DNA from: an uncultured Pelagibacteraceae bacterium
GTDB taxonomy: Bacteria > Pseudomonadota > Alphaproteobacteria > Pelagibacterales > Pelagibacteraceae
DNA: 64,000 bases
Direction: 5' to 3'
Assembly (NCBI GenBank): GCA_902594255.1
Contig: CACJLN010000005.1
Span: 1-64,000, forward strand
A program made the position numbers and the translations under genes. Under the pieces are notes generated by a model. The model was given only the letters and a program-made list of their open reading frames with translations. It was not told the DNA's origin and did not search any database. Positions 1,403-5,505 of this stretch are shown here, in pieces; within the stretch, counting starts at the first letter, position 1; every line of letters starts with the position of its first letter.

Positions 1403-2226
1403 TATAGTTTGATTTCAATTTCCTCTACATCTGATACAGGACCTTTCATATGTATTGAATTTTTTGCATCAATCCATATCGACAATTTTCCTGTCGAAAA
1501 TTCTATATCTGTTTTATTTTCTGTTAAATTATTTATCTTACCAGCAAATGCAGTTGCGCAGGCAGCAGTACCACATGCCTTAGTCAATCCAGCTCCTCTT
1601 TCCCAGACTTTAACTTTAATCAAATCTTTATTTATTACTTGAGCAATTGTGACATTACATTTTTCTGGGAAAATTGAGTGATTTTCAATTTCCGGACCAA
1701 TTTTTTTAATATTGAAATCGTTTAGTTCATTAACAAAAAAAATGATATGTGGATTCCCGACATTCACTGCAGTGCCACCAATATGCTCTTTATCATTTAT
1801 ATCAAGAATTTTAATATTTAAATTTCTTGTATCTAATTTTTCCAACAAGGGTATTTCACTCCAATCTGTTTTAGCTTTACCGATTTCTGTTGTAACAATC
1901 TTATTTCCTAAAATTTCAGACTTTAACAGTCCAGAAAATGTCTTCAAAATTATAGTTTTGTTATCTGTTTCTTTTGAAATGAAATTAGCAATGCATCTTG
2001 TTCCATTACCACATGCTCCTGACTCTCCACCGTCAGAATTAAAAAATTTCAAGTATGCATCAGCTGAATTATCGTTTTCTATCAAAATCAATTGATCGCA
2101 ACCAATAAAACTTCTATCGCAAATTTTAATTATCTGCTCTTTATTTAAATTGGTAATTTTTTGTCTATTATCAATAATTACAAAGTCATTACCTAAACCA
2201 TCCATTTTAAATGCTTTAATGTTCAT
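1402..2226 (-). CDS. dapF: diaminopimelate epimerase
   Basis: MDGLGNDFVIID, GACGNGTRC, WERGAGLTKACGTAACA motifs with both catalytic Cys. Confidence 0.96.
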   Translation of the reverse strand: MNIKAFKMDGLGNDFVIIDNRQKITNLNKEQIIKICDRSFIGCDQLILIENDNSADAYLKFFNSDGGESGACGNGTRCIANFISKETDNKTIILKTFSGLLKSEILGNKIVTTEIGKAKTDWSEIPLLEKLDTRNLNIKILDINDKEHIGGTAVNVGNPHIIFFVNELNDFNIKKIGPEIENHSIFPEKCNVTIAQVINKDLIKVKVWERGAGLTKACGTAACATAFAGKINNLTENKTDIEFSTGKLSIWIDAKNSIHMKGPVSDVEEIEIKL

Positions 2227-2268
2227 ATATGTTTATTTAACTTATTTATTGACTTTTTGAACCTCTAT

Positions 2269-2377
2269 TATAGTTTGTGGCAGTTTCCGCAAAAACGTTA
2301 AATTTGCGGTGTCTTTGGAAACAAAGAGATCGACACTAGTCTGCGAGGGTTCGCCCACTAGTGCGATTACTGTTGGG
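2269..2377 (+). ncRNA. putative structured leader RNA / ncRNA upstream of ffh (three hairpins inside a closing stem)
   Basis: Read directly: CCGCAAA(2287-2293)/TTTGCGG(2303-2309); TCTTTG-GAAA-CAAAGA(2312-2327); ATCG-A-CACTAGT(2329-2340) ... GGG-TTCG-CCC(2347-2356) ... ACTAGTG-CGAT(2357-2367); outer GGCAGT(2279-2284)/ACTGTT(2369-2374). TATAGT at 2269-2274 could be a -10 box. Confidence 0.75.
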
Positions 2378-2387
2378 TGTAATAAAT

Positions 2388-3746
2388 ATGTTTGAAAATT
2401 TGACTAATAAATTTGAGGAAGTTTTTTCCTCTTTAAAAAAAGCACCATCACTAGATGAAAATCAAGTAGATGAGGGATTAAGAGGTATTAGGCAGGCCTT
2501 GTTAGAGGCAGATGTATCTCTTGAAGTTGCAAAAGACTTCATCGAAAAAGTAAAACCAAAAGCTCTAGGTAAAGAAATTATCAGATCGACATCCCCTGGA
2601 GATATGGTTGTGAAGATCGTTTATGACGAATTAGTCAGTTTGCTTGGTGAAAAAAATGATGATGTAAATCTCAACGCAGTCCCGCCTGTACCAATGATGT
2701 TGGTTGGACTTCAGGGCTCTGGTAAAACTACTACAACTGCTAAACTAGCAAGGTATCTAGAGAACACTAAAAAAAAGAGAGTAATGATGGTTAGTTTAGA
2801 TATCTATAGGCCTGCTGCACAAGAACAATTAAAATTATTAGGTGAACAAAATAATATTATAACTTTACCGATAATTGAAGGTCAGCAACCAAATGAAATT
2901 TGTCAAAGAGCTTTAAGTGCTGCAAATTTAAATGGCGCAGATATAATTCTATTTGATACCGCTGGTAGAACTCAAATAGACTTGCAGATGATGAGTGAAA
3001 TTAAGCAAATTGAAAATACTATTAACCCTGCAGAGATATTTCTTGTTGCAGATTCATTAACAGGACAAGTGGCAGCGTCCGTCGCAAAAGAATTTAAAAA
3101 CACTGTTAACCTCTCAGGAATAATCTTAACTAGAGCAGACGGAGATGCAAGGGGTGGAGCAGCAGTGAGTATGAAATTTGTGTCACAAGTACCAATTAAA
3201 TTTTTAGGTATTGGTGAAAAAATTGAAAATCTTGAATTATTTCATCCAGATAGAATAGCAAATAGAATTCTTGGTATGGGAGATATCATATCTCTTGTAG
3301 AAAAAGCAGCTGAGGATTTAGGTGAGGAAAATATAAAGAAAGCTGAAGAGAATTTAAAAAAAGGTCAATTTTCAATGCAGGATTATTTAACACAATTAAG
3401 ACAGATGAAAAAAATGGGAGGAATAGAAGGTGTGATGTCATTTATGCCTGGTGTATCTAAGGTTAAGTCCCAAATGGAAGCTGCTGGTATAGATGAAAGT
3501 GTTATCACTAAAAACGAGGCAATAATTTTGTCGATGACCAAAAAAGAACGAGAGAATCCAAAAATAATTAATGGTTCAAGAAAAAAAAGAATTGCTAATG
3601 GCTCTGGTACAGATCCAGCCACTATCAATAAATTGCTTAAACAATTTAAAATGATGTCAGAAATGATGAAAAAAATGTCAAAGGGAAATCTGAAAGGTAT
3701 GTCTGATAAAGGAATACCACCAGAGCTATTTAATCAATTAAAATAA
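2388..3746 (+). CDS. ffh: signal recognition particle protein Ffh
   Basis: GLQGSGKTTTTAKLA, DIYRPAAQEQL, DTAGRTQ, TRADGDARGGAA, Met-rich M domain. Start placed at the MFENLTNKF ATG rather than 2361, which lies inside the leader hairpin. Confidence 0.97.
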   Translation: MFENLTNKFEEVFSSLKKAPSLDENQVDEGLRGIRQALLEADVSLEVAKDFIEKVKPKALGKEIIRSTSPGDMVVKIVYDELVSLLGEKNDDVNLNAVPPVPMMLVGLQGSGKTTTTAKLARYLENTKKKRVMMVSLDIYRPAAQEQLKLLGEQNNIITLPIIEGQQPNEICQRALSAANLNGADIILFDTAGRTQIDLQMMSEIKQIENTINPAEIFLVADSLTGQVAASVAKEFKNTVNLSGIILTRADGDARGGAAVSMKFVSQVPIKFLGIGEKIENLELFHPDRIANRILGMGDIISLVEKAAEDLGEENIKKAEENLKKGQFSMQDYLTQLRQMKKMGGIEGVMSFMPGVSKVKSQMEAAGIDESVITKNEAIILSMTKKERENPKIINGSRKKRIANGSGTDPATINKLLKQFKMMSEMMKKMSKGNLKGMSDKGIPPELFNQLK

Positions 3747-3757
3747 AAGGAGAGTAA

Positions 3758-4213
3758 ATGTTAAAGTTAAGGTTATCAAGAGGTGGCACAAAAAAAAGAC
3801 CAGTATACAAGTTAGTTGTTGCAGACAGTAGGTTTTCAAGGGATGGAAGATTTATAGAAAAGGTAGGTTTTTTTAATCCGTTACTTCCAAAAGAAAAAAA
3901 AGAGAGAATAGGACTTGAAGCTGAAAGAATTAAATATTGGTTGGGTCAAGGAGCAAAACCAACTACAAGAGTTGCAAGAATTCTAGGAGAAAATGAGTTA
4001 ATGCCTATGCCTGTTAACGGAAATAATCCTCAAAAAGCTATTCCAAAAAAAGATAGAAAAAAAGAAGCATCAACAGAAGCCAAAAAAGAAGAAGCTCCTA
4101 AAGCAGATGCAGCACCAGCAGCAGAAGCAAAAAAAGAAGAACCTCCTAAAGCAGATGCAGCACCAGCAGCAGAAGCAAAAAAAGAAGAGGCTTCAAAAGG
4201 GGAAAAAAAGTAA
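3758..4213 (+). CDS. rpsP: 30S ribosomal protein S16 with repetitive Lys/Glu/Ala-rich C-terminal extension
   Basis: MLKLRLSRGGTKKRPVYKLVVADSRFSRDGRFIEKVGFFNP; preceded by AAAGGAG Shine-Dalgarno; follows ffh. Confidence 0.97.
   Translation: MLKLRLSRGGTKKRPVYKLVVADSRFSRDGRFIEKVGFFNPLLPKEKKERIGLEAERIKYWLGQGAKPTTRVARILGENELMPMPVNGNNPQKAIPKKDRKKEASTEAKKEEAPKADAAPAAEAKKEEPPKADAAPAAEAKKEEASKGEKK
4094..4189 (+). repeat. two near-identical 48-bp tandem units (16 aa each) in the rpsP 3' end
   Basis: 4094-4141 gctcctaaagcagatgcagcaccagcagcagaagcaaaaaaagaagaa versus 4142-4189 cctcctaaag...aagaag: about 46/48 identical; encodes APKADAAPAAEAKKEE / PPKADAAPAAEAKKEE. Confidence 0.95.
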
Positions 4214-4227
4214 TTTAAAAAATCATC

Positions 4228-4914
4228 ATGTTCCAAGCTCAAGTATTTACTTTGTACCCAGAATTTTTTCCTGGCCCTCTTGCTAAAGGCCTGTATGGAA
4301 AAGCTCTATCTAATAAGTTATGGAATTTGAATGTTGTAAATATAAGGGATGCAGCAACAGATAAACATAAAACTGTTGATGACACTCCGTATGGAGGTGG
4401 AACAGGAATGTTACTTAAACCAGATATATTAGCAAAATCGTTAGACCAAAGAGTAAAAAAAGATGAAAGAATTTTTTATTTATCACCTAAGGGAAAAAAG
4501 TTTGACCAAAAATTTGCAAAAGATTTATCAAAAGAAAAATCTATCTCTCTAATTTGTGGTCATTTTGAAGGAGTTGATGAGAGAGTTTTAGATACAAGAA
4601 ATATAGAGGAAATAAGTATAGGAGATTATGTTTTGTCTGGTGGAGAAACTGCTGCATTAGTTGTGCTTGATACCATTTTAAGACTTTTACCTGGTGTACT
4701 AGGAAATAAAAAATCTGCAATTGATGAAACCTTTGAAAATGGTCTTTTAGAGTACCCCCAATATACAAAACCTCAAATTTGGGAGGAAAAACCAGTACCC
4801 GAGGTATTATTATCTGGAGATCATGCTAAAATTAAAGACTGGCGTTTATCTCAATCTGAGGCTATAACTCGCGACCGAAGACCAGATTTGTGGCAAAAAT
4901 ATAAGAAAAACTAA
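4228..4914 (+). CDS. trmD: tRNA (guanine-N1)-methyltransferase
   Basis: YGGGTGMLLKPD, CGHFEGVDERV, EISIGDYVLSGGE motifs; rpsP-trmD-rplS synteny. Confidence 0.96.
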   Translation: MFQAQVFTLYPEFFPGPLAKGLYGKALSNKLWNLNVVNIRDAATDKHKTVDDTPYGGGTGMLLKPDILAKSLDQRVKKDERIFYLSPKGKKFDQKFAKDLSKEKSISLICGHFEGVDERVLDTRNIEEISIGDYVLSGGETAALVVLDTILRLLPGVLGNKKSAIDETFENGLLEYPQYTKPQIWEEKPVPEVLLSGDHAKIKDWRLSQSEAITRDRRPDLWQKYKKN

Positions 4915-4929
4915 TTGAACAATTATAGA

Positions 4930-5505
4930 ATGAAAACAATCGAGGAAATAAATCAACATAATGTTAAAAAAATTCTATCAGAGAAAAAAATTCCTGATTT
5001 TTTTGCTGGAGATGTAGTTAAAGTAGGTGTCAGAATTACAGAGGGTAAAAAAGAGAGAATACAGTTCTTCGAAGGCGTTTGTATTGCAAAGAAAAATAGA
5101 GATTTGAACTCGTCATTTACAGTCAGAAAAATTTCATTTGGAGAAGGTGTTGAAAGAACTTTTCCACTATATGGGACTGTGATTGACTCTATTAAAGTAA
5201 TCCGTTCAGGCAAAGTCAGAAGAGCAAAGCTTTACTACCTAAGGGATAGAACAGGAAAATCAGCAAGGATTGCTGAAAAAATAAGAAAAAAAATTGGCAT
5301 TGATATTGATGTAAAGCCTGAAACGGTAAATGAGGAAAATCTTGCCCCAACAAATAAAGAAATTGAAACTGAGATAAATATAAAGGTTGTGTCAACATCG
5401 GATGAAAAAAAAGAGGAAACTACTAAAAAAGAACCTCAAATAGATGCACCTAAAGCTGATATTAAAGCAGAAAAAAAACTTGAAAATCCCTCAGAAAAAA
5501 AATAA
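4930..5505 (+). CDS. rplS: 50S ribosomal protein L19 with acidic/Lys-rich C-terminal extension
   Basis: [32 protein letters not shown]...[46 protein letters not shown]. Start probably ATG 4930. Confidence 0.96.

Follow-up and report, generated by a model that had tools for sequence, protein, structure and literature searches.

The window analysed here is a stretch of 64,000 nucleotides from an uncultured Pelagibacteraceae bacterium. Near its start, dapF lies on the minus strand (start codon at 2226) and ffh begins on the plus strand (ATG at 2388), leaving a gap of 161 nt. A reading made earlier from the sequence alone had placed in this gap a compact multi-hairpin RNA, nested in a closing stem, and the sequence of 2269–2387 reads as stated there. 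The gene downstream is the first of an operon of four. The features of the locus are as follows.

2249–2276, plus strand: predicted sigma-70-type promoter, with a -35 element TTGACT (2249–2254), a 16-nt spacer and a -10 element TAGTTT (2271–2276).
2287–2293/2303–2309, plus strand: hairpin a (CCGCAAA/TTTGCGG), 93.5% of cells paired in 51 SAR11-order sequences.
2312–2317/2322–2327, plus strand: core of hairpin b, with a GAAA loop, 96.5% of cells paired and three pairs changed on both sides.
2307–2314/2325–2332, plus strand: extended form of hairpin b, predicted by RNAalifold from the alignment.
2334–2363, plus strand: hairpin c, the published ffh motif, with an outer stem (2334–2340/2357–2363), an inner stem (2343–2346/2351–2354, GCGA/UCGC) and the loop GGGU.
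2364–2376, plus strand: single-stranded tail, with a class consensus of about nnUUnnn-GUUUGG after the last stem base (column counts, 84 sequences).
2388–3746, plus strand: ffh (Ffh/SRP54; PF00448, PF02978, PF02881), first gene of the operon.
3758–4213, plus strand: rpsP (ribosomal protein S16; PF00886), the proposed true target of the leader.
4228–4914, plus strand: trmD (PF01746), operon member.
4930–5505, plus strand: rplS (ribosomal protein L19; PF01245), operon member.

When the window was compared with Rfam using cmscan, positions 2319–2372 gave a full-length match to family RF01793, "ffh" (47.4 bits, E = 1.1e-7, model positions 1–52; gathering cut-off 35 bits). It is the sole match to this family in the whole source assembly, and cmscan returned no other family above cut-off in the window. 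The sequence-only reading of a structured RNA distinct from SRP RNA, tmRNA and tRNA was right. The match scores above the cut-off, lies 5' of ffh and contains a bulged, covarying hairpin with two bulge cytosines (C2341 and C2356); the RNA is a member of the catalogued family. Meyer et al. (2009, PMC2704228) first described this motif, drawn as one bulged hairpin, from the same intergenic region of Candidatus Pelagibacter ubique, the dapF-ffh gap, and the core of the observation is therefore already in the literature. The earlier suspicion that an ncRNA candidate had been proposed near ffh was correct. Those authors found the motif in Rhodobacterales, Sphingomonadales and Rhizobiales, in addition to SAR11, and reported it absent from Rhodospirillales and Caulobacterales. 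They judged it "likely cis-regulatory" with an unknown function, suggested that it might regulate ffh, saw no resemblance to the part of 4.5S RNA bound by Ffh and, citing others, noted that the transcript is detected in metatranscriptomes (PMC2704228). RNA-seq of Bartonella bacilliformis also lists an "ffH leader RNA" (PMC7717549), and transcription is thus documented at the level of the family. Rfam types RF01793 as an sRNA, and the one paper found to cite the accession assigns the family no function.

Folding of 2269–2390 gave an energy of -38.2 kcal/mol. Shuffled sequences averaged -26.7 (z = -3.57), and none of the 200 was equally stable. All three hairpins of the sequence-only reading recur in the fold and are conserved in SAR11. 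In the alignment of 51 distinct SAR11-order sequences, 94.7% of the cells of hairpin c are paired and three pairs are changed on both sides; compensatory changes across SAR11, which the earlier reading had named as the test of the structure, are thus present in both b and c. Class-wide, 11 of the 12 pairs of hairpin c form in 100% of 84 sequences, the exception being a variable position beside a mismatch. These sequences contain 157 cells changed on both sides, a number reached by 0 of 500 shuffles. The two stems are separated by a 2 × 2 internal loop, composed of a C2341·C2356 mismatch and U2342·C2355. The C·C mismatch is found in 83 of the 84 sequences, and the position next to it, which is A·C, C-G, A·A, G-U or U-A elsewhere, is a rare U·C in the window. 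The class-wide fold, GCGA-GGGU-UCGC above the C·C mismatch, contradicts a UUCG cap (GGG-UUCG-CCC) with a 6-nt bulge, as originally drawn.

Hairpin a lies outside the RF01793 model, which includes only the 3' part of hairpin b. The two hairpins are conserved extensions that are missing from the published single-hairpin model. Beyond SAR11, hairpin b is enriched class-wide (stems of at least five pairs in 64% of sequences versus 25% of shuffled ones), while enrichment of hairpin a is modest (stems of at least six pairs in 42% versus 24%). The extended form of b competes for bases with the 3' arm of a. In L083 and in Fonsibacter (L230 and L232), positions 2289, 2307 and 2332 read A-U-A instead of G-C-G, so that both alternative pairings are kept. 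This triplet change, which may be one event, is suggestive of a switch between hairpin a and extended b and falls short of proof. Two further elements of the sequence-only fold fared less well. The lower stem AUCG/CGAU is weak, and RNAalifold extends hairpin b instead. The closing stem GGCAGT/ACTGTT has only 56.5% of its cells paired in SAR11, with mostly one-sided changes. A pseudoknot between loop b and the tail was considered and rejected; judged by eye, it fits some GC-rich sequences and fails in SAR11 and in part of the order of genome G119 (described below).

The upstream flank carries a conserved promoter-like signal. Of 141 loci, 131 have TTGAC at a distance of 60–125 nt upstream of stem c (shuffled expectation, 7.4), and the motif is usually followed after 17 nt, the commonest spacer class-wide, by a TAnnnT-like hexamer. 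The TATAGT box at 2269–2274 to which transcription had been attributed is better read as TAGTTT, 16 nt after TTGACT. A scanner requiring 9 of 12 consensus positions did not report the promoter at 2249–2276. These elements imply a transcription start at approximately 2282–2284, some 50 nt upstream of hairpin c. Most of the 5' strand of the closing stem would not be transcribed from a start near 2283, because it would coincide with that position or precede it. No terminator-like site was found after the RNA in the window, and the SAR11 tail is not a run of U; an intrinsic terminator after hairpin c was accordingly discarded.

The RNA is present in 65 of 81 SAR11-order genomes. We built a covariance model, R1, from hairpin c and the 3' tail. 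It matches 185 of 289 alphaproteobacterial genomes, a count in which absences from GC-rich genomes are unreliable owing to the limits of this first-look scan. With RF01793, 80 of these 289 genomes are matched, so that over half of the class members recovered by the model with the tail escape the published one. The element described here differs from RF01793 as published, one hairpin associated with ffh in SAR11 and in three orders, in having two further hairpins on its 5' side, a conserved promoter, a tail and this wider distribution. It shares with the published motif the dapF-ffh locus of Pelagibacter and the same bulged hairpin.

Gene context was determined by tblastn with the proteins of the window, and only loci with enough sequence were counted. 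The RNA was followed by rpsP in all 99 testable loci of the class (40/40 and 59/59), and ffh was the first gene in 97 of them. The remaining members of the operon are less constant. In L325, L343, L346 and L364 neither trmD nor rplS lies within 8 kb, and rpsP is retained; rplS was also not found in L157 and L164, where rpsP stays (the sequence of L158 stops too close behind trmD to be informative). The distance from the RNA to the first start codon ranges between 5 and 78 nt across 60 loci and reaches 285 nt in L157, a variation that led us to reject fixed masking of the ribosome-binding site. The one gene present at every testable locus is rpsP, and the RNA is most simply read as a leader of the (ffh-)rpsP operon. 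The linkage of ffh and rpsP is old, so the universality of rpsP alone proves little. We also observed that the rpsP-trmD gap of the window is 14 nt (4213–4228), leaving no rimM at that place in SAR11; rimM lies between rpsP and trmD in the order of G119 (L187) and, judged by spacing, in most other loci too. S16 carries a long, low-complexity C-terminal extension, with repeats rich in K, E, A and P in SAR11 (window 4040–4213) and A, P and E repeats in L187 (8422–8700).

One order departs from this arrangement in an informative manner. The order of G119 comprises 18 genomes (G119, G225, G306 and G369–G383), six of them at least 90% complete, and 14 of the 18 carry the RNA directly before rpsP (L187 and L197–L209). 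In the 12 loci that were read, a frame beginning MxVKIRLARGG starts about 40 nt after the RNA; in L187, S16 and RimM were confirmed by Pfam. On the other side dapF is still divergent, and ffh is gone from between the RNA and rpsP. The SRP54 GTPase family PF00448, which covers both Ffh and FtsY, was above cut-off in 0 of the 18 genomes and in 14 of 14 controls; G371 has a partial match of 41 residues, below cut-off. The Ffh of the window, which finds FtsY as a distant paralogue in its own assembly, matched nothing in three genomes of the order, and SRP RNA was found in none of the 18. These 1.4-Mb genomes appear to have lost the whole SRP pathway naturally. Single-cell genomes deposited as "uncultured PS1 clade bacterium" (L211–L213) carry the same RNA-rpsP arrangement, and the elements of L211 and G382 do not differ in a single base. 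Within the order, hairpin c is 100% paired and two pairs are changed on both sides; selection on the fold therefore appears to have continued after the loss of ffh. As the RNA is kept here with no SRP detected, sensing of Ffh or SRP cannot be its function in this order, and members of the family can evidently exist where ffh is missing. No or very weak SRP54 matches were also seen in G137 and G237 (f59), G140 and G321 (f62/g65), G191 and G275 (f112) and G123 (f45), and the R1 scan listed no RNA match in these f59, f62/g65, f112 and f45 genomes.

The SRP RNA itself (RF00169), the partner molecule of the ffh product, was also sought. No match was found in window 1800–2800, nor at 2319–2372 even with E values up to 10. 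It occupies a separate locus in 49 of 61 relatives, and the possibility that the RNA is a divergent SRP RNA was rejected on this basis. RF00169 was not found in the window's own assembly (G000, 81.6% complete), probably because of an assembly gap. Pairing of the leader with helix 8 of SRP RNA (UUCCGG, CUGCU) was also abandoned; by eye, the stretches are not conserved class-wide, and the order of G119 yields no SRP RNA match.

The co-oriented position upstream of rpsP in every testable locus and the conserved promoter of its own, as predicted, support well the status of the RNA as a 5' leader, and the cis-regulatory reading proposed from the sequence is probably right. We lean, at slightly better than even chances, toward a leader of the ffh-rpsP-trmD-rplS operon that most likely mediates feedback by S16 in cis. 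S16 as the most likely ligand follows from linkage and from analogy. An S16 leader upstream of rpsP, responding to S16, has been proposed in Flavobacteria (Eckert and Weinberg, 2020, PMC7247131), which makes S16 an accepted kind of ligand. That leader belongs to another phylum and is likened to ours by position and proposed ligand, not by structure; moreover, in Alphaproteobacteria ffh usually sits between the RNA and rpsP. In the mechanism we envisage, transcription would begin at the sigma-70-type promoter, and the leader would fold into hairpins a, b and c and the conserved tail, a fold demonstrated in b and c by covariation and in a by pairing that is conserved across SAR11. S16 in excess over 16S rRNA would then bind hairpin c at the invariant C·C mismatch and, like other ribosomal proteins acting on their leaders, lower expression of the operon in cis. 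The first gene, ffh, would be co-regulated and would not be the sensor. The alternative pairings of a and extended b, together with the variable start-codon spacing, suggest that control may operate through folding of the leader, transcription or mRNA stability, and not by direct masking of one ribosome-binding site. When R1 was searched against a SAR11 rRNA operon for mimicry of rRNA, the best hit had E = 0.23 and did not align the hairpin, which counts against the S16 reading; resemblance to the protein's rRNA site is common in autogenous leaders and is not required.

Other explanations were weighed against these data. A chance origin of the hairpins in AT-rich DNA can be set aside with near certainty, being refuted by the covariation, by the Rfam match above cut-off and by the presence of the RNA in most relatives. 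Feedback by the SRP, in which Ffh (or its balance with 4.5S RNA) would bind the leader and repress ffh with rpsP as a passenger, accords with the place of ffh as first gene in nearly all loci, with the possibility raised by Meyer et al. (PMC2704228) and with the absence of the RNA from the other SRP-less genomes. As a general function we nevertheless consider it unlikely. The RNA persists, with compensatory changes, in 14 of 18 genomes of an order that has no SRP54 match above cut-off and in which no SRP RNA was found, and it bears no likeness to the Ffh-bound part of 4.5S RNA (PMC2704228). The decisive case against an SRP role is one loss event in one order.

We regard as similarly improbable a leader that responds to RimM, TrmD or L19, or to a small molecule or general factor co-regulating translation genes. 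These genes share the operon in most genomes, and the ligand of a leader is often not the product of its first gene (PMC7247131); RimM or another factor may take the place of S16. However, several lineages retain the RNA with no trmD or rplS behind it, and the window has no room for rimM between rpsP and trmD. A trans-acting small RNA that is freed from the 5' UTR, its operon position being incidental, would fit the Rfam type and the transcript peaks in metatranscriptomes (PMC2704228) and in Bartonella (PMC7717549). This seems more doubtful still, given the unbroken linkage to rpsP, the separate promoter and the open path into the gene; no terminator-like site was found behind the RNA in the window.

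What is new here is a fuller anatomy, a wider spread and a changed view of function, for a family that was itself known. No role has been assigned to it since its description in 2009, and the name suggests SRP. Tentatively, and at a little under even odds, we suggest that the "ffh" family is misnamed and would be an S16 feedback leader found throughout the Alphaproteobacteria, with a protein site at the C·C mismatch and a switch between mutually exclusive a and extended-b pairings, which places ffh under ribosome-linked control and which survived complete loss of the SRP in one marine order. The natural deletion of the SRP, with the RNA kept at rpsP, is a direct reason to take S16, and not Ffh, as the candidate ligand. 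If this is true, a single leader would couple the synthesis of SRP to the supply of ribosomal proteins in most Alphaproteobacteria, and the order of G119 would offer a model for life with no detectable SRP.
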